Below, piece by piece: positions 27,838 to 39,890 of a stretch of DNA of 41,625 bases. The DNA comes from a virus. The stretch lies in IMG/VR virus record IMGVR_UViG_3300042295_000781, positions 1-41,625 of that record. One strand, written 5' to 3'. Every line of letters begins with the position of its first letter. The first letter of the stretch is position 1. The notes beneath the pieces are model-generated. The model searched no databases. It saw only the letters and a list, made by a program, of their open reading frames with translations, and was not told the DNA's origin. The position numbers and the translations under genes were made by a program.

Positions 27838-28116
27838 TCAGGGCGCGTCACTCTGCGACTTTTTCGGCTTCAAATAGCGGTAAATTGTTGCCCTGCTTAC
27901 GCCAGATTCAGCGGCAATCACAGCAACAGGCTTGCGGTTTCGTAATTCTGCGTTGATACGATCTAGTGTGAGTGCAGGCCTGGGAAAAATTCGGGCAGTT
28001 TCACCTCCAAACCGCTCGCGCAGCGCCTTTTCGAACCTTTGCGCCTGATCTTGACCTATTCCAGCGACTTCTTTGGCAAGACAGGCAAATTCTTGAGCAT
28101 AATCCCTGCGACTCAT
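27838..28116 (-). CDS. Helix-turn-helix protein after the large terminase, 92 aa
   Basis: The ATG at 28116 overlaps the terminase stop (ATGA) and has GGAGG five bases upstream. The C-terminal part, RKPVAVIAAESGVSRATIYR, is a resolvase/Mor-type helix-turn-helix (IAAESGVSRATIYRYL). The N-terminal half is helical and contains ERFGGETARIFPRPALTLDR, as in Mor/C-like small regulators. It may control late genes or take part in packaging. Position inside the packaging module is unusual for a regulator. Confidence 0.75.
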   Translation of the reverse strand: MSRRDYAQEFACLAKEVAGIGQDQAQRFEKALRERFGGETARIFPRPALTLDRINAELRNRKPVAVIAAESGVSRATIYRYLKPKKSQSDAP

Positions 28117-30035
28117 CCGCGCCTCCATCCGTTGAGCGAGATTTTACCCGGCGCAACCGGTATTTCTGGTGCGGCGGGCGCTTCCAGCGCATTATTCTGT
28201 ACTATTTCGGCTTTTTTTTCCAGTCTTGACAACATTTGCTGCCAAAAACTTGAGCGATTGTGTCTCGAATAACAATAATGCAGTGCCGCATAAGCGTAAA
28301 CAAGGGTATCCAATGCCTCGTTTCGGTCGCTGTCCTTCTTCGTCCAGAATCGCTTCGGCATTCCGTTGACAAATTTTGTCGCCTGTTTTTCCGATGTGAG
28401 CTGATCGAAGTATTCCTCTGGCAAGCCCAGCGGGAAATGAAACACCCCCGCGCCAGTTTCCTCGGGGCGTTTCAGCCTGCCGTAGATCGTGGACTTGATG
28501 CTATCCACGCCAATCGGGTAGAGATGCGCCCCGCTCTTGATTTTCTGCCCGCGTATGTTGATGTCCTGCTTCGTCGGTGCGCCTATCGGCGGCCTGCTGC
28601 CAGACATACCCTTGCCAGCCAGGATGTGGCGGTTTCTATGCTGGCGCGTGAAACTATAGACCTCGTTGGTCTTGTTACCGTCGCCTGAGTCCACCACGGC
28701 AGCATAGACGTGCATGTCCGCGCCCGATGCGTGGCGTATCGGCGTATTGATGACATCGAGCACCTGTTGCCATATTTCAAAGCGGGACGGGTCGCCGAAA
28801 ATCACGGCATAGTTCACGATCCAGGCTTCTTCGGAAATGCCCCAAGCGACTGTCTGGATCTCGATGCGGTTCTCTTGAACGTCCACGCCAGCCGTCAATA
28901 CTAGCCCACCCGCCGGTGCGGTCAGCAGGTCAAACGGCTCGGCTCGCTTCGATAGGCTGTCCGCGTCGAGTTTCGAGCTGTAGGCTTCCTCCCATGTCTC
29001 GGCCAGCACGTTGTTGACGAACGCTTGCAGCTTTTTCGGGCTGCCCTGAGCTTCTACCCACTGGCGCGCGATCTTTGCCCACGATTTCCAGCCGACTGGC
29101 GAGTACAGCGCGCTGATGTGATAGCCGCGCCTTGCCGGGTCTGCCTTTTCCGCGCAAGTGGGCACCCACTCCCCACCGTTGAGCATGTCGGTCTTGTGCC
29201 GTTCCTCGATCACACCGCCACATTCCGGGCACGTCATGTATGCCTTGCGGAATTGGTGCCTACCTTCCTCGTCTTTCGGTATGACGAAGTTCTTCCATTG
29301 CAGCGTGTGCATGTGCGAGCAATGCGGACACGGCACGAAATACCGGCGCTGGTCGGTTTTCAGGTATTCGGCCTCGATCCGGCATATATCCTTCACGCCC
29401 GGTGTGCTGGTCTTGAATATCTTGCGCTTGCGCCCGAACGTATTCGTCCGTTCCTCTGCCAGCCCAAGCGGGTCGCCTTCGCCGTCAACATCGAGCGGCC
29501 AGTTGCTGATCTCGTCAGCGAAAAGATACCTAATCGGCATCGAGCGCAGGCCAGCGGCTGAGTTCGCCCCGCCCATGAGCAGGATCCCGCCAGGAAATTC
29601 CTTCTCAAGCATGTTGTTACCGCCATCCCGGCTGCGATTCTGGGGCACCTTGTCGCGCAGGCTCGGTGTTTCCAGAATCATCGGGCTGATACGCTGCTTG
29701 GAGTAGCGCTTGGCGTTGTCCACGGTCGGCTGCACCAGCAGCATCGGACCTGGTGCCTCGTCGATCACATACCCAACCCAGTTATTCCCAGATTCCGATT
29801 TTCCGGTCTGGGCTGCGGCCATCAGCACGACTTCCTCGATGGGGCTGCTCGTACTCAGGCAGTCCATCGGTTCGCGCATGTAGGGCGTCCGGGCGCTTCG
29901 GTACTTACCCGGCTCTGCCGCACCCTTGCTGGGTAGCATCCGCTTGTCGTCTGCCCACTGCGTCACCGTGCGCCGGGTGGGCACGTTGAACACCTCGAAA
30001 AACCCACGGATTAACGGGTTCCTAGTGTCAAGCAT
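28113..30035 (-). CDS. terL: Terminase large subunit (lambda gpA family), 640 aa
   Basis: ATP-driven packaging motor and genome-cutting nuclease. Walker A-like AAQTGKS at 74-80, with the conserved lead YMREPMDCLSTSSPIEEVVL and NNWVGYVIDEAPGPMLLVQP, is typical of the gpA/GpA-ATPase family. A zinc-binding pair of CPxC motifs (CPHC, CPEC) follows around residues 230-265. The nuclease domain includes GVDVQENRIEI and AAVVDSGDG. It overlaps the small subunit by eight bases. A gpA-type motor suggests cos packaging, although no cos site is evident. Confidence 0.96.
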   Translation of the reverse strand: MLDTRNPLIRGFFEVFNVPTRRTVTQWADDKRMLPSKGAAEPGKYRSARTPYMREPMDCLSTSSPIEEVVLMAAAQTGKSESGNNWVGYVIDEAPGPMLLVQPTVDNAKRYSKQRISPMILETPSLRDKVPQNRSRDGGNNMLEKEFPGGILLMGGANSAAGLRSMPIRYLFADEISNWPLDVDGEGDPLGLAEERTNTFGRKRKIFKTSTPGVKDICRIEAEYLKTDQRRYFVPCPHCSHMHTLQWKNFVIPKDEEGRHQFRKAYMTCPECGGVIEERHKTDMLNGGEWVPTCAEKADPARRGYHISALYSPVGWKSWAKIARQWVEAQGSPKKLQAFVNNVLAETWEEAYSSKLDADSLSKRAEPFDLLTAPAGGLVLTAGVDVQENRIEIQTVAWGISEEAWIVNYAVIFGDPSRFEIWQQVLDVINTPIRHASGADMHVYAAVVDSGDGNKTNEVYSFTRQHRNRHILAGKGMSGSRPPIGAPTKQDINIRGQKIKSGAHLYPIGVDSIKSTIYGRLKRPEETGAGVFHFPLGLPEEYFDQLTSEKQATKFVNGMPKRFWTKKDSDRNEALDTLVYAYAALHYCYSRHNRSSFWQQMLSRLEKKAEIVQNNALEAPAAPEIPVAPGKISLNGWRRG

Positions 30036-30597
30036 ACGTTTTCCGTAATTCTTGAACCGCCCGGTCTATTTCCTCGAGTAGCAGCCGGTGGATGTCGTGC
30101 GGTTCGCTCATTCCCGCCAGTTCGTCACTAATCCGGTCGGGGATGTTGTACATCGAGCTGATAATCACCGATGCAAGCTGCCTGCCCTGCTTTTCGACAT
30201 CGGTTGCAGCAACCAGGTCACCTTGGGCCTCTTTCAGCTTGACGTTATCGAGCTGGAGTTTCACCAACTCACGCGCGCGCTGAATCTCGGCCAGCGGCAT
30301 GCCTGACCGTGGCGACGGCGAGTCGTCTGGCTGCCTGAGTTGGGTGCGATTTTCTGGCGCTGCCGGTGGCCTGCCGTCTTCTCGCGGCCTACCGCCAGCG
30401 ATGTTATGCGGGCGTTTCTGCGGGTGCATTGCGTTGGCCACCCAGGCCTCCGCCTGAGTATCGTAATCAATGCCACTGATGCGCCCTGTTTTGGGGTCTT
30501 TGTCGGCATAAATTCTGCCGTTTTGAACTCCTTTTTGTACTGCCGTGAGGCTTACGCCCACACGGCGAGCAAATTCGCGCAGTGTGACAATTTCCAT
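30028..30597 (-). CDS. terS: Terminase small subunit (Nu1-like), 189 aa
   Basis: DNA-recognition part of terminase. The N-terminal winged helix (MEIVTLREFARRVGVSLTAV, then GRISGIDYDTQAEAWV) is like lambda Nu1. A Pro/Arg/Glu linker and a C-terminal helical part that would bind the large subunit follow (LAEIQRARELVKLQLDNVKL). It follows the ParB-like gene after one base and precedes terL with an eight-base overlap. Confidence 0.9.
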   Translation of the reverse strand: MEIVTLREFARRVGVSLTAVQKGVQNGRIYADKDPKTGRISGIDYDTQAEAWVANAMHPQKRPHNIAGGRPREDGRPPAAPENRTQLRQPDDSPSPRSGMPLAEIQRARELVKLQLDNVKLKEAQGDLVAATDVEKQGRQLASVIISSMYNIPDRISDELAGMSEPHDIHRLLLEEIDRAVQELRKTYA

Positions 30598-30598
30598 A

Positions 30599-31111
30599 TC
30601 ATCCTTCGCGGCCTGGCACCCACGCCCTGCCGAAACCCGATGCGCGCGCCGAACCGCGCACCGTCATACCGGAACGATCCAACAGGCGCTCCAGCTCTTC
30701 ATCTTCCATGCCCAGCCTGCGGCATATCTCGGCGCTATTCATTCCGGCTTTGACCATGCCGCGCACGATCTCAGCCATTTTCAGGACAGCATGCGTACCC
30801 CTGGCGCGATTGTGCCGTATCGTGCTCATCATGCGATGCACCGGGTCGGCCTGAATCGTCACTACCGGCACCATGCCGCCAGTCATGGCGCGGATGGCAG
30901 GCGTAGCGCTGACCGTCCAGCGGTGAAACCCGTCCACGATGGTGTTGTCGGGCAGGATGCAGATAGGGGAAGTCCAGCCGTCCTCGATAATGCTGGTTCT
31001 CAGCAGGTCGAGCTCAGGCGGCGCTACCGCGTTCGGGTTGTAATTATTCGCCCTCAGTTTCCCCCGAGCGATCCAGCGGACACGGCTGACTGGCTGATTT
31101 TCGGTGCTCAC
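30599..31111 (-). CDS. ParB/IbrB-like protein, 170 aa
   Basis: A single ParB/sulfiredoxin-fold domain: RGKLRANNYNPN (the N-terminal R-x-N-Y/N-P motif), IIEDGWTSPICI and VDGFHRW, the position of the GERR/GEHR motif of ParB. A C-terminal helix-turn-helix-like segment follows (NSAEICRRLGMEDEELERLL). The nearest described relatives are IbrB proteins, which pair with the PAPS-reductase-like IbrA. The GTG start overlaps the stop of the IbrA-like gene (GTGA), so the two are translationally coupled. No ParA partner exists here, so plasmid partition is unlikely. Confidence 0.85.
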   Translation of the reverse strand: MSTENQPVSRVRWIARGKLRANNYNPNAVAPPELDLLRTSIIEDGWTSPICILPDNTIVDGFHRWTVSATPAIRAMTGGMVPVVTIQADPVHRMMSTIRHNRARGTHAVLKMAEIVRGMVKAGMNSAEICRRLGMEDEELERLLDRSGMTVRGSARASGFGRAWVPGREG

Positions 31112-32280
31112 CGGCCTACCTCCGCGAGTGCCTGCTCAAGCGTCTGCCCGGTTTTCTTGCGGGTCAGATCGCCCTTGATCTGCATATTCCCGCTGCGCCT
31201 GCCTTTCAGGTCGCCCCTAAGCGCCAGAATGCAGAAAAACTGCCAGCTTGCCCCGCTTACCGGGTCGGCTTCCTCGGCGGGGATGTCTCTGCCCAGCGTC
31301 TTGCGATTGTGCAGGTCAATCAGTTCGGCAACGTTGGCGCGAATCTCGCCCTGCTCGGTTTTCGGCCAGAGCGCCACCAGATCATCGAACCACGTCCGCC
31401 AGGTCTTGCCTTCCGGCAGTTCGATGGTTCCGTAGCCGTACAGCTCGGTCTTGGCGTACCGGGCAGCGGTTGCAGCGCCGGGCACGCGCGCAATCATCTT
31501 GTGCCAGAGATGCGGCCAGCACTGCGCGTACTGATGCAACCCGCCGAGCGGTTCCTCGCCGTAGGGTGGGCACACGCGCTGGGCGCTGTGCGACACGCCA
31601 GCTTTGTCGAATACGTCATACGTCCGGTTGTAGTCCCAGCCGAACAGCTTGGGCGCCAGCCAGACATCCTCGGTCGTCCAGTCGTAGATCGGGCTGGCCG
31701 CGCAGTTATGCCCGTTTCTCGGCGACGTGATCCAGTTATCCTCAATCTTCATCGACACCATGCGCAGCCGTCGCAGGCTTTCCTGTGCCCGGATACCGCG
31801 AACATCGGCCACCATGCCGTGCTCTGCCCCATACACCAGCGGTGCGCAGTCGGGCATCGACATGCCCAGGCTGAAACCGGGCAGCTTCGTGATCGCGGTC
31901 TTTGGCAGTTCGCGCACCCAGATGCCACGCTCTGCCGGGTTCCATGGATACCAGTAGGGCGATTTTCGGCTGCATGCGTTCCTGTGCTGAACCGGGATGC
32001 AGTACCAGCGGAAGCGAATATCCGGGCGCGCTGCTACCCGGTGCAGGTATTCGACGGTTTCCGGGTGAATCGCTTCCTCATCGAACGTGTACACGTCCAG
32101 CGGTAGCCGTCCACGTTCACTGGCAACCATCAGCGCCAGATTCAGGCATACGGTGGAATCCTTGCCACCGGAAAACGACACGCACACCTTGTCGAAGCGG
32201 TCGAACAGCAGATTCATGCGCTCAAGCGCTTTGTCGAACACGTTGGCACGAAGAATCTTGCGGCGAAATAGCTTAGCCAT
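31108..32280 (-). CDS. IbrA-like PAPS reductase-family protein (DUF3440), 390 aa
   Basis: A PP-loop ATP pyrophosphatase of the phosphoadenosine-phosphosulfate reductase superfamily. The loop SFSGGKDST is at residues 35-43, and the later GIRAQESLRR at about 162-171 is the second conserved motif. It has the extra C-terminal region of DUF3440/IbrA. IbrA with IbrB was described as an activator of immunoglobulin-binding eib genes in E. coli. DndC, a relative, works in DNA phosphorothioation. A reductase with the usual ECGxH-type tail is not seen, so sulfate reduction is unlikely. Coupled on both sides. Confidence 0.9.
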   Translation of the reverse strand: MAKLFRRKILRANVFDKALERMNLLFDRFDKVCVSFSGGKDSTVCLNLALMVASERGRLPLDVYTFDEEAIHPETVEYLHRVAARPDIRFRWYCIPVQHRNACSRKSPYWYPWNPAERGIWVRELPKTAITKLPGFSLGMSMPDCAPLVYGAEHGMVADVRGIRAQESLRRLRMVSMKIEDNWITSPRNGHNCAASPIYDWTTEDVWLAPKLFGWDYNRTYDVFDKAGVSHSAQRVCPPYGEEPLGGLHQYAQCWPHLWHKMIARVPGAATAARYAKTELYGYGTIELPEGKTWRTWFDDLVALWPKTEQGEIRANVAELIDLHNRKTLGRDIPAEEADPVSGASWQFFCILALRGDLKGRRSGNMQIKGDLTRKKTGQTLEQALAEVGR

Positions 32281-32978
32281 CAGAGCGTCCTGATCGTTTC
32301 AATTTCGGATGCGCGGACACCATCCACAAACGTCCTGCCGATCATCGGGTGGCTCTCGTCTGTAGGTCCGACATCGCTGTCCGGGTGCCAGGCGATCACG
32401 TCCAGGTGCTTGTCGGTCGTCCTGAAACGGTGCGGCGCGTTGGCCGGAATCCGCCAGAGTACGCCGGGCGCCAGTTCCGTTACTCCGTCCGGGGTCACAC
32501 ACTGCCCCCGGCCACGGTGCACCACACCGATGCGGTCGCTCGGGTGCGTGTGCATGATCTGCTCGACACCAGGCGGGATGTGCAGGTGATTCAGGCAGGC
32601 CTCGCCCTTACGCCACGGCTGGATCAGTACGCTGTCGGTGCAGCCGTTGATGTACTTGAGCCGCCCCTGGCTCTCGACCGGTCCACCGGTCATGAACGGG
32701 AAATCGCCTCCAGGCTGGTAGATCAACAGAATCCGACCGCCCGGGTTGGTCAGATCGCCAGCGCCCGACTGGATCACGAAGTAACATCCGCTGCCGATGC
32801 TGTGCGCCCTGCCACGGTGCCGCAGGGTGGCGTTCTCGCCGTCCACGACAAACCCGAATACCGCGCCAGGCTTGCCGAATCGGTAAAGCGCATCCCAGGC
32901 GGGATTGTGCGCTGCAATAACCGATGCAGTGGCCGAGCTGAATACCGGTCCACCAGTCCACGGAAACGTTTCAAGCAT
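32280..32978 (-). CDS. Two-part cupin-fold protein in the ParB/PAPS cassette, 232 aa
   Basis: The product looks like a tandem cupin. The second unit has the metal motif MHTHPSDRIGVVHRGRGQ and a later GVLWRIPANAPHRFRT with the third His. The first unit (about 20-105, FGFVVDGENATLRHRGRAHS) has the barrel pattern but a degenerate metal site. The start is at the ATG at 32978, with GAGGAAG seven bases upstream. Its stop shares a base with the IbrA-like start (TGATG). Cupins include oxygenases, isomerases and sensors; the substrate here is unknown. Confidence 0.8.
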   Translation of the reverse strand: MLETFPWTGGPVFSSATASVIAAHNPAWDALYRFGKPGAVFGFVVDGENATLRHRGRAHSIGSGCYFVIQSGAGDLTNPGGRILLIYQPGGDFPFMTGGPVESQGRLKYINGCTDSVLIQPWRKGEACLNHLHIPPGVEQIMHTHPSDRIGVVHRGRGQCVTPDGVTELAPGVLWRIPANAPHRFRTTDKHLDVIAWHPDSDVGPTDESHPMIGRTFVDGVRASEIETIRTL

Positions 32979-33642
32979 CGAGATACTTCCTCGCAATCAC
33001 AAGCATGGCGTCTGCGGTCTGTTCCAGTCCGTGCTGTTTCTTCGCGGCTGCCACCGCGTCATAGACCACCTGACGGGCTTCGAAGGTCATGAGCACGTTG
33101 AACGGCACCATATCGGCCAGCGGCGGCGGTTCGTCCTGGCTGGGCGCAGGCTCGTCACTAGCTGGTGCTGGTTCTTCGTCGGGTTCTTCGTCGGCCTGTG
33201 CTGGTGCCGGGTTGTTGACCTGCTCCAGCTTGGACAGCTCGGCCAGCGCGCTCATTTCTAGCGCGTCGAATTCGGACTGGCTGAAACCGGTCGAGGTGAT
33301 GTCGCCCAGGCCTTCCATGATCGCCGAGAGTTCGTCCGCCAGCTTGGCATCGTCCCAGTCGGCGAATGTCGCGGTCTTGTTGTCGGCGATCCTGAGCGCC
33401 CTGACCTGATCGGGGCTCAGGTCTTTGGCTACATGCACCGGCACGGTCTTGAGTTTCAGCAACTGCGCGGCAGCGTGTCGGCTGTGACCGGCAACGATTA
33501 CCCCATCAGAGTCCACGACAATCGGCTGACGCCAGCCGAATGACTTGATCGACTCGGCCACCTTCTCTGCGGCGTTCCTGAGCACTCGCGGATTGTTCGG
33601 GTAAGGCCTAATTTTTGACAGCGGCCAGTCTTCGATCAGCAT
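32971..33642 (-). CDS. ParB-domain protein with acidic linker, first gene of the late operon, 223 aa
   Basis: A ParB/Srx domain at the N-terminus (WPLSKIRPYPNNPRVL, SFGWRQPIVVDSDGVIVAGH, then SRHAAAQLL), of the kind usually fused to phage DNA methyltransferases. A helical part (VRALRIADNKTATFADWDDA) and an acidic Pro/Glu/Asp linker (about 140-175) follow. A last helical segment of about 45 residues has no methylase motifs. It overlaps the cupin gene by eight bases. It differs from the second ParB protein (30599-31111) in linker and tail. Confidence 0.87.
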   Translation of the reverse strand: MLIEDWPLSKIRPYPNNPRVLRNAAEKVAESIKSFGWRQPIVVDSDGVIVAGHSRHAAAQLLKLKTVPVHVAKDLSPDQVRALRIADNKTATFADWDDAKLADELSAIMEGLGDITSTGFSQSEFDALEMSALAELSKLEQVNNPAPAQADEEPDEEPAPASDEPAPSQDEPPPLADMVPFNVLMTFEARQVVYDAVAAAKKQHGLEQTADAMLVIARKYLDA

Positions 33643-33679: not shown

Positions 33680-33708
33680 ATTGTATGCTGGTTTATTACG
33701 TTGTACAA
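33680..33708 (-). promoter_or_regulatory. Late-operon promoter overlapped by the TTACGTTGTA motif
   Basis: Minus strand: TTGTAC (33703-33708), 17-bp spacer, TACAAT (33680-33685). The motif TTACGTTGTAC (33696-33706, one arm mismatch from TTAC-GTT-GTAA) covers the -35. This is the best promoter in front of the ParB-cassette, terminase and virion genes. Confidence 0.6.
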
Positions 33709-33900: not shown

Positions 33901-34680
33901 TCAAACCAAAAACATTAGCTCTGCGCCTTTGGATACATTATCTTTTGCCCACAATGGCCTTAGATTGCTCATGCACCAGCATTTGCGCCACTGCTCAAAA
34001 TCACTAAGGTCAAATGCCGCTTTTGGGATAATGTGGTCAATGTGTATATCCCCTTGATTGAATGCATCCCACGTCATTCCATCAACAAACTGTCGTTCAA
34101 TATGCTGTCTTAGCTGAGCCGCTGTGTATCCAAGATTACGAAACGACGCCCTTGAACCGGATTTCATTTTTATTGCCGCCCTTAAATCTGCGGATAGCTG
34201 GCGACATTGGTTTTTTATGCGACTGGCTGCAGCATAATCCATATCAAGTTTTTTTCTTACATGATGCCTTTGCAATTCAGTAAGACCTGGCTTTTGCCAT
34301 AACCAGCAAACAGCCACTCCAAGTTCAATGCGTTTTTTTGTTTTTTGAACAATTGATCTAAGGCGCTGATTTTCTGCAAACTGCTGGTCGAGACTATAGC
34401 GCTTTGCAAATTTTTCTGCCGCACTTAAGCCCGGCCTTTCCCATAACCAGCAAACACCATCATGCCCGGTTACTCGTTTCTTTGGTAATTGCTTCGGCTT
34501 TTTTGTTTGCGCCTTAAATGCCTGATATTCGTCCCATGATGCAAAGCCTTTGGACAATGCTGATTTGTGACGCTTGGCTTCGCGTTCTTTGGCTAAGTCG
34601 CGTTTGTTTTGTTCGCCTTTAGCCTTGAGTCGCTCACGATAACGGCGAGTTCGCAGAGTTGAGGATTTAAGAATATCCAT
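33901..34680 (-). CDS. HNH endonuclease with a duplicated VCWLW module, 259 aa
   Basis: The C-terminal HNH nuclease has IHIDHIIPK (His213, Asp215, His216), MSNLRPLWAKDN (Asn239) and a Cys pair before it (CWC). Ahead of it two units, at about 75-113 and 123-161, each open with VCWLW(E/Q)(R/K)PGL and continue as a basic helix: an internal duplication with a 48-residue period. The N-terminal 60 residues are highly basic. The start is the ATG at 34680 with AAAGGA upstream, inside a small hairpin. It stands alone between operons, as free-standing homing-type endonucleases often do. Confidence 0.88.
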   Translation of the reverse strand: MDILKSSTLRTRRYRERLKAKGEQNKRDLAKEREAKRHKSALSKGFASWDEYQAFKAQTKKPKQLPKKRVTGHDGVCWLWERPGLSAAEKFAKRYSLDQQFAENQRLRSIVQKTKKRIELGVAVCWLWQKPGLTELQRHHVRKKLDMDYAAASRIKNQCRQLSADLRAAIKMKSGSRASFRNLGYTAAQLRQHIERQFVDGMTWDAFNQGDIHIDHIIPKAAFDLSDFEQWRKCWCMSNLRPLWAKDNVSKGAELMFLV

Positions 34681-35085
34681 CGAAGTCCTTTCGATAGCCC
34701 GAGAAAATATCGGGAAGGCAGTGGACTTTGCTGCTTTTCGGATGGCCGTCCTATCCCGATGAATTGAATTATACACGATACCGCTTGAATACAGCCCCGT
34801 GGCTGGGCTTTCGCGGTCGTGTTGGTGTCTGGATATGTCCGCGCATTTCGGCGCGCTGTAGCGCCCTGTTTCCACCAGGCCGGATTGGGCAGGACAGTGC
34901 AACAGTGCATCGAGTGCATCAGGTCGCCTATATTACCCCCCACCCCCCTCCTGATACCTCTACCTATACCCTTTCCCTATACCCCCCTTATTTATTACTA
35001 CATACATACACTGGTTTACCTTTAGGTATAAGTATATGATTATTAAGGAAAAAATCAGTGCATCAACCTCAGTGCAACGTGCAAC
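34681..35085. other. 405-bp gene-poor stretch with iteron-like repeats; candidate replication origin
   Basis: No credible gene is found here. AGTGCA(T/A)C occurs at 34896-34903, 34904-34911, 34913-34920, 35056-35063 and 35070-35077, with a related GTGCAAC to 35084. Between the two clusters lies a C-run tract (34935-34951, 34982-34987; G-rich on the other strand), followed by about 60 bp of AT-rich DNA (34988-35052). Iterons beside an AT-rich segment and next to the primase operon would fit an origin. The HNH promoter also lies in this stretch. Confidence 0.45.
34768..34773 (-). promoter_or_regulatory. Consensus -10 hexamer for the HNH gene
   Basis: The minus strand reads TATAAT about 90 bases upstream of the HNH start. 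No convincing -35 is present at 16-18 bp, so the promoter is weak or needs an activator. Confidence 0.4.
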
Positions 35086-38315: not shown

Positions 38316-39890
38316 TCACTGGCCTATGGGGCTGTAATTATTTTGCGCCACCAGAATGACCACGGATACACCTGTGCCTTGGAATTCCTTATCGTAGGGA
38401 CCATGCCAGGCCAGGTTCATGCCGGGCAGTTCCAGAATAAGGCTCCGATTCTTGGCGCCAGATGGCAGGATCGCTACCAGCCGCCCACCAGGCTTGACCA
38501 GACTGGCAGCGCGTTCCAAGTGCGCCTGCCACCGGCCTTGGTCGAACGGTGGGTTCATCACTATACGGTCGAAGCGCTCGGCAAACTGGTGTGCTAGAAA
38601 ATCAGCTTCGATGCAGGTCTTGCCCTTGGCTTGAAGCACCTTGCAGTGCAGCTTGCTCAGCTCCACGCATACGGTGTGACCGGGCAGAATGTCCGCTAGG
38701 CCGCCTTGGCCTGCGCTGGGCTCCAGCACGGTGTGGGTATCGCCGATCTCGGCCAGCTCTACAGCGATCTTGGCCAGGCTTGGTGGGGTAGGGTAATACT
38801 GGTGCGATTTGTGGTCGGGTACGCATCCGCTGTTGATGATCTCATCGAGCACATCGGTGGGGTCGTAGTCGAAGTGGTAGCAGTCATTATCCCGGACACC
38901 GCCCATGCTCTCGATGACCTGGCGCGCTTGCTGCTCGACGTGTTTGTCAACCTCCGCGCGCCAGAATGACCACTTGTTGTTGTATTTGTCGCGCTTGAAC
39001 TCATACAACCGGTTGATCACGGCGAACGGCAACGGGCGCATGATCGCGGCCACGGCCTTGGCCTTGCGCTCCGGGCGCTTCCTGAATTGGCTGGGAATGG
39101 CGAGCGGGTAAAGCTGGGCGAGCACACAATTCAGACGCCAGGCCATGTCTGGGTGTACTTCAAGGTGCGCGGTGCCTTTCTTGTACAAGCGCATCCGTAG
39201 CGCGCCACCGTCAACCGTTACCCATTGCCCCCAGTTACGTTTCAGGGTGTCTATCAGGCTCGATGTGGCTGTCCACTTCGGTTCGTCGCGTCCCATGAAT
39301 TTGGCGATCACCGCGCGCAGGTCGTTGATGTATCCAGCGCGGCCATGGTTCGTGCTGTAGTAGCTGTTGAGCACGAAGCCGATGATCATACGCCTGCCGA
39401 AGCCCTCCGGGGCGTTAGTCACGTGCTCACCGGACAGGTTGCGAAAAATGCCATCGACACGCTCGGCCAGAAACTGGCTGCGCTTGCTCAGCAAGTCCGT
39501 GAGCGTTGCCCGGACAGTCTCGGCGGTAAATTCCGGCGCTTTGTGTTCGCTGATGGTTTTGTGCCACTCGTCACGGCGCGCCTGGGGCATGTAATCGAGC
39601 ACATCGGTGAGCTGGAGCGCCTTGCTCCAGTAACCGGAATTGAGTGCGGCGACGGCGCGTTGTGCGTTGAATAGCTCGCTGACCGATGGCGCGCTGTGAT
39701 GTCGGTCACGCACCTTGGCCGCCTCCAGAAAGTAGTGAACGGTCTCAGCGACTTCGCCCGTTACCGTTTCGGACAGCGACAGGATGCGGGCTTTGGTGGC
39801 GTCGTATTGACCGATCAGTGAGTCCAAAACGCTGGTAGATACCGGTGCAAAAAATGTGGATTCATCGTCCACGAGTTCGAATTGATTCAT
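38316..39890 (-). CDS. DUF4942 protein with N6-adenine-type DNA methyltransferase domain, 524 aa
   Basis: The C-terminal domain is a gamma-like amino-methyltransferase. Motif I is EPSAGQGG at 390-397, motif IV is NPPF at 446-449, and ASLVKPGGRLVAILPSG follows, pointing to N6-adenine (or N4-cytosine) methylation. The N-terminal 350 residues match DUF4942, found fused to such domains in phages and conjugative elements, and are mostly helical with basic patches. AAGGA lies six bases before the ATG. No partner restriction enzyme is seen. It may protect phage DNA or mark it for replication or packaging. Confidence 0.9.
   Translation of the reverse strand: MNQFELVDDESTFFAPVSTSVLDSLIGQYDATKARILSLSETVTGEVAETVHYFLEAAKVRDRHHSAPSVSELFNAQRAVAALNSGYWSKALQLTDVLDYMPQARRDEWHKTISEHKAPEFTAETVRATLTDLLSKRSQFLAERVDGIFRNLSGEHVTNAPEGFGRRMIIGFVLNSYYSTNHGRAGYINDLRAVIAKFMGRDEPKWTATSSLIDTLKRNWGQWVTVDGGALRMRLYKKGTAHLEVHPDMAWRLNCVLAQLYPLAIPSQFRKRPERKAKAVAAIMRPLPFAVINRLYEFKRDKYNNKWSFWRAEVDKHVEQQARQVIESMGGVRDNDCYHFDYDPTDVLDEIINSGCVPDHKSHQYYPTPPSLAKIAVELAEIGDTHTVLEPSAGQGGLADILPGHTVCVELSKLHCKVLQAKGKTCIEADFLAHQFAERFDRIVMNPPFDQGRWQAHLERAASLVKPGGRLVAILPSGAKNRSLILELPGMNLAWHGPYDKEFQGTGVSVVILVAQNNYSPIGQ

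Follow-up and report, generated by a model that had tools for sequence, protein, structure and literature searches.

What function could unite two ParB-type proteins, a tandem cupin and an IbrA-like PP-loop ATPase that are encoded side by side, just ahead of the DNA-packaging genes of a virus? We took up this question in a 41,625-base IMG/VR virus record (the window, that is, the whole stretch of DNA analysed), where the four genes lie on the minus strand in the order ParB1–cupin–IbrA–ParB2.

The four genes and their surroundings

The features of the locus are listed from its upstream end.

33680–33707, minus strand: weak promoter-like site upstream of ParB1 (sigma-70-like match)
32971–33642, minus strand: ParB1, 223 aa from an ATG; ParB_N/Srx-fold domain, acidic linker and a C-terminal domain conserved in orthologues
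32280–32978, minus strand: tandem cupin (bicupin), predicted metal enzyme; 232 aa from the ATG implied by the earlier sequence-only reading
32544–32552, minus strand: HxH motif of the cupin, His143-Thr-His145, from sequence and conservation
31108–32280, minus strand: IbrA-like PP-loop ATPase with PAPS_reduct and DUF3440 domains, 390 aa
32155–32172, minus strand: PP-loop SGGKDS of IbrA, residues 37–42, from sequence and conservation
30599–31111, minus strand: ParB2 (IbrB-like), ParB N-domain and helix-turn-helix domain; 170 aa from a GTG; PHROG 2159
30920–30934, minus strand: DGFHR motif of ParB2, residues 60–64; D60, G61, H63 and R64 invariant in 47 of 47 sequences
30028–30597, minus strand: terminase small subunit (context), PHROG 57
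28113–30035, minus strand: terminase large subunit, GpA type, by family match (context)

The sequence-only reading of this DNA had described four genes with overlaps of 8, 1 and 4 bases and a single base between their end and terS; the coordinates agree on both counts, ParB2 ending at 30599 and terS beginning at 30597. The promoter of their own that it gave them stands less firmly, with two sigma-70-like matches found on the minus strand between 33400 and 34100 versus 0.7 expected by shuffling. An alternative upstream TTG start, at 32996, is possible for the cupin gene. The part of the window's ORFs that was scanned showed no parA, dnd or restriction gene close to the cassette, as had also been claimed; the same ORFs held no nucleotide-pool modification gene, and no RNA families were found in the cassette region. 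ParABS partition was rejected as a role, since no parA adjoins the cassette, whose immediate neighbours are an endonuclease-like or unknown ORF and the terminase genes. The ORF upstream (33901–34902, minus strand) is weakly like endonuclease VII (PHROG 1035) and has, by eye, an HNH-like C-terminal end. Further away, at 38316–39890 on the minus strand, lies a phage DNA methyltransferase that combines DUF4942 with a small methyltransferase domain (MTS).

Recurrence of the set in diverse phages

We queried uncultured viral contigs with the cupin and with IbrA, and added five cultured phages. The four-part unit recurs in about a hundred diverse environmental phages. IbrA-bearing loci numbered 248; 118 were distinct at 90% identity, 113 of them uncultured, and a tandem cupin lay near IbrA in 84 of these 113, other cupins in 17 more. 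Since some loci had been fetched via the cupin, a fairer count uses the clusters reached through IbrA queries, which were built from cassette IbrA proteins and sample that branch rather than all IbrA proteins. Among 81 such clusters, ParB2 was found beside IbrA in 80, ParB1 in 74, a cupin of any kind in 69 and all four parts in 65; where the cluster was reached through IbrA only, a cupin was present in 53 of 65. Conversely, IbrA was present at 76 of the 80 viral loci kept from the cupin search, three of the four remaining loci being cut contigs that begin at the cupin and one (L138) a true exception. At cellular tandem-cupin loci IbrA was found in 4 of 80, so that the cupin usually stands there without IbrA.

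Complete tandem-cupin cassettes (n = 80) follow the order ParB1–cupin–IbrA–ParB2 in 71 cases and ParB1–IbrA–ParB2–cupin in 9. TerL starts no more than 3.5 kb downstream in 82 of the 99 loci that extend far enough to show it, at a median distance of 586 bases, and the TerL genes behind the cassettes are of the GpA, Terminase_6 and TerL_ATPase/nuclease families; phages whose packaging genes differ thus share the cassette. Between the four proteins, pairwise distance matrices are correlated (Mantel r 0.63–0.71, shared phage descent not being separated out). The occurrence of the same four parts in scores of divergent viruses puts the set far beyond chance. Random placement of the cupin and second ParB, which the sequence-only reading had named as speaking against its four-gene set, is clearly not seen, given the 65 of 81 clusters that hold all four; the set is one unit recurring across diverse phages, in two gene orders and usually near the terminase.

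Two loci carry an extra gene within the cassette. In L003 (2798–3430) a gene of HNH/NUMOD type, by eye, is inserted between IbrA and ParB2 in an otherwise intact cassette; in L299 (6283–6996) a 237-aa gene with no Pfam match, by eye like phage-annotated DNA methyltransferases, lies between cupin and IbrA.

Properties of the four proteins

Firstly, we considered the cupin. The Pfam Cupin_2 match (1e-12) covers its C-terminal half only, and an AlphaFold2 model (pLDDT 82) has a double cupin fold; model and PDB matches agree with the tandem cupin first read from the letters. The model resembles salicylate, gentisate and quercetin dioxygenases and oxalate decarboxylase, at identities so low that no specific reaction can be assigned. 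H143, H145 and H183 are invariant in 36 of 36 viral and cellular homologues, as are E102, R106, C113, Q140, R149, H198, D202 and H210. By its fold and its conserved metal-type histidines, the protein is predicted to be a metal-dependent tandem cupin enzyme. The core without the tandem cupin is already present in cultured phages, whereas two different queries for the tandem cupin found nothing in 50,697 deposited phage records; a small-cupin query of the deposited records gave one weak, unannotated match. Next to cellular tandem cupins (L023–L102) stand asparagine-synthase-like genes (20 loci) and a gene for a zinc-ribbon/toprim-like protein (18 loci) or, in Maricaulis, NeuB-like, cytidylyltransferase-like and sulfotransferase-like genes; two of all these were checked with Pfam. 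The substrate was not revealed by these cellular neighbourhoods, with their asparagine-synthase-, NeuB-, cytidylyltransferase- and NRPS-like genes assigned by eye and partly Pfam-checked.

Secondly, IbrA matches DUF3440 (PF11922, 7e-14) and PAPS_reduct (PF01507, 4e-11), and adjoins a ParB-like protein, ParB2, in keeping with the IbrA/IbrB-like pair that had been proposed. Its SGGKDS PP-loop is essentially invariant across homologues; among solved structures, none was close by sequence beyond a weak match to sulfate adenylyltransferase.

Thirdly, ParB1 matches Pfam ParB_N (7e-8), and its ParB_N/Srx-fold domain is followed by the acidic linker described earlier. DNA methyltransferases are frequent among its phage relatives, with alignments covering roughly the N-terminal 130 residues; others are ParB-like proteins. 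ParB2 gave no Pfam match above cut-off and matches the ParB-like PHROG 2159 at 7e-62, while its model (47 sequences, pLDDT 80, the last 22 residues unreliable) matches Noc, ParB and KorB structures.

An exchangeable slot

ParB1, IbrA and ParB2 form a core that is inherited along with one small-molecule part out of several, in most cases immediately before the terminase genes. At loci without the tandem cupin, other genes occupy its place or sit just after ParB2: single-domain cupins, an actinophage-type cupin, a TctC-type binding protein (PF03401) or sodium:solute symporters (PF00474). One small cupin comes with an aldehyde dehydrogenase. A second PP-loop protein was counted in 25 of 113 loci and class II glutamine amidotransferases in 12 of 113, both approximate figures from home-made profiles; several amidotransferases begin MCGI, an intact N-terminal cysteine by sequence.

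The symporter query alone retrieved 61 viral loci, with IbrA in 52, ParB only in three and no core profile in six, some of these on short or cut contigs. Viral sodium:solute symporters (L339–L399) are almost confined to IbrA/ParB cassettes, and a distant group of them shows the order symporter, second PP-loop protein, ParB1, IbrA, ParB2. By sequence, the solved structures closest to the symporter are those of urea and choline transporters; NCBIfam places it in the general family, pantothenate and proline matches falling below cut-off. A quick IbrA tree of 138 rows, some of them loci chosen because they carry the symporter, requires 8 changes of the symporter label, and well-supported branches force at least 7 of these; the window's own IbrA group has a symporter group as its sister, with 92% support, which falls short of the starred level. 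Two features that the sequence-only reading had missed point to a small-molecule co-substrate: the replacement of the cupin by a symporter or TctC protein, and the optional pair of second PP-loop protein and amidotransferase. With one part repeatedly swapped between cupins and a membrane transporter, the cassette resembles a DNA-targeting kit that uses a small molecule.

A proposed role in DNA modification

We tentatively favour, at somewhat less than an even chance, DNA modification using a small molecule that is made by the cupin or imported. The small molecule would be the substrate, IbrA a ligase-like PP-loop ATPase, and ParB1 and ParB2 would direct IbrA to DNA. The cupin would make or mature a small polar metabolite, which symporter- or TctC-bearing lineages would import rather than make; IbrA would spend ATP via its PP-loop, activating the metabolite or the nucleobase, and would then join both, acting as an adenylating ligase and not as a sulfur transferase. 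ParB2, with its ParB N-domain and helix-turn-helix, and ParB1, with a domain of the methyltransferase-fused type, would place the reaction on phage DNA before packaging, and the likely benefit would be escape from restriction or other DNA-recognising defences.

Several lines of evidence favour DNA modification: the four-part conservation, the linkage of cupin and IbrA, the correlated protein distances and the place before three TerL families; the methyltransferase kinship of ParB1 and the likeness of the ParB2 model to DNA-binding ParB, Noc and KorB; the invariant PP-loop and cupin metal-type residues and the N-terminal cysteine of the amidotransferases; and the symporter, found with IbrA at 52 of 61 viral loci and changing at least seven times on the IbrA tree. 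Against it count the presence of a symporter or periplasmic binding protein, which one would not usually expect among DNA-modification genes; a general moron or auxiliary-gene hot spot, which could also collect such genes; the best-described E. coli relatives of IbrA, which act as regulators; and the lack of a nucleotide-pool modification gene among the ORFs scanned. A DNA-modifying role is still the best of the options offered by the sequence-only reading, ParB1 being kin to methyltransferase-fused ParB domains; its sulfur version is weakened.

If the cassette modifies DNA, it would bring new chemistry with exchangeable substrates and a devoted phage-borne transporter. A bolder form of the proposal, which we put forward as a doubtful possibility, is an unrecognised class of phage DNA hypermodification: an unchanging PP-loop/ParB core would attach small molecules that can be exchanged for one another, so that the DNA decorations differ between phages; these molecules would come from cupins, amidotransferases or a phage-encoded sodium symporter.

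Alternative explanations

A metabolite-sensing regulator, with ParB1 and ParB2 binding DNA and activating late or host genes together with IbrA, in the way reported for IbrA/IbrB, while an effector would be supplied or detected by the cupin, symporter or TctC protein, is unlikely but deserves serious consideration: the cassette heads the late operon, the ParB2 model has a helix-turn-helix, and IbrA/IbrB are annotated as co-activators of prophage gene expression. A pure regulator, however, need not keep an invariant PP-loop and cupin metal-type site, and ParB1 is kin to methyltransferases.

We consider it improbable that the four proteins form a host-directed enzyme set, which would modify a host protein, a nucleotide or tRNA in order to take over the cell or counter defences. 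tRNA is a frequent target of PP-loop ATPases, and the ParB fold includes free serine kinase, to which ParB1 has a weak profile match, but two ParB-type proteins, one with a DNA-binding domain, fit DNA better. Less credible again is that the place next to the terminase is a hot spot for auxiliary metabolic genes or morons that have no joint function: varied metabolic genes do share one slot, yet the core stays ParB1–IbrA–ParB2, a cupin occurs in 69 of the 81 IbrA-fetched clusters and viral symporter homologues hardly occur outside the cassette.

The sulfur chemistry that had been suggested from DndC relatives is weakened. IbrA has the PAPS_reduct fold and weak DndC, SspD and BrxP profile matches (marginal for DndC), and its cysteines 94, 103, 236/237 and 254 co-occur in 71 of 119 sequences. 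None of its cysteines is invariant among these 119, however, which speaks against a common function in sulfur chemistry like that of DndC or CysH; IbrA of loci L131 and L148 is without all four, yet stands in a full cassette, and no dndA, dndD, dndE, sspA–D or cysteine desulfurase was seen among the part of the window's ORFs that was scanned. The main sulfur hint left comes from E. coli K-12, where deletion of ybdO raises ybdN, the IbrA homologue, by 5.5 log2 and many cys genes by about 2–2.8 log2 (PMC9068703, Table 1), a correlation in a strain with many changes that could reflect sulfur drain by YbdNM or be unrelated. A phosphorothioate-like, DndC-type modification of DNA is very improbable.

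Comparison with known systems

No paper describing the triple or quadruple set was found in the open-access literature searched, subscription papers and preprints falling outside this scope. Where viruses carry PAPS-reductase-like genes, these are commonly catalogued as auxiliary metabolic genes of the cysH type, serving sulfate assimilation. One phage PAPS-reductase-fold protein, for instance, was read in this way (PMC10434257). We rejected CysH PAPS reductase as an identity for IbrA, which scores 21 bits on NF002537 against a cut-off of 154. IbrA-type genes belong to a conserved set that also holds two ParB proteins and a small-molecule part, and they score far under the CysH model; the cysH label is therefore probably wrong for this group.

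IbrA/IbrB of E. coli and YbdN/YbdM share with the cassette adjacent DUF3440 PP-loop and ParB-like proteins and an association with phages or prophages, but form a pair only in the region seen, with no cupin, symporter or second ParB beside them. Phosphorothioation by Dnd, Ssp and type 4 BREX likewise combines a PAPS-reductase-fold protein with a ParB-superfamily member, DndB (PMC12839542), but involves desulfurase, ATPase and nuclease partners, none of which was seen here among the ORFs scanned, and the DndC matches are marginal. ParB-domain phage DNA methyltransferases (PHROG 498) have a ParB N-domain as in ParB1, which differs in being without the methyltransferase domain.

Among cultured phages, Pseudoalteromonas phage XCL1123 encodes, in this order, an IbrA-like protein, an ectoine-synthase-family cupin and a ParB near the portal gene, but its cupin is a different, single one and its IbrA is distant on the tree. 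Genes 1–6 of the cultured Mycobacterium phage LestyG (L337; Bclasvirinae) encode, in this sequence, a ParB, two small proteins, a PAPS reductase-like protein, a ParB and a terminase; unlike the window, LestyG has no annotated cupin or symporter, its two slot genes being small and unannotated in function. With the cassette core at the left end of its genome, LestyG offers a cultured model for the core, and since phages with related core genes are in culture, the question of function is testable.
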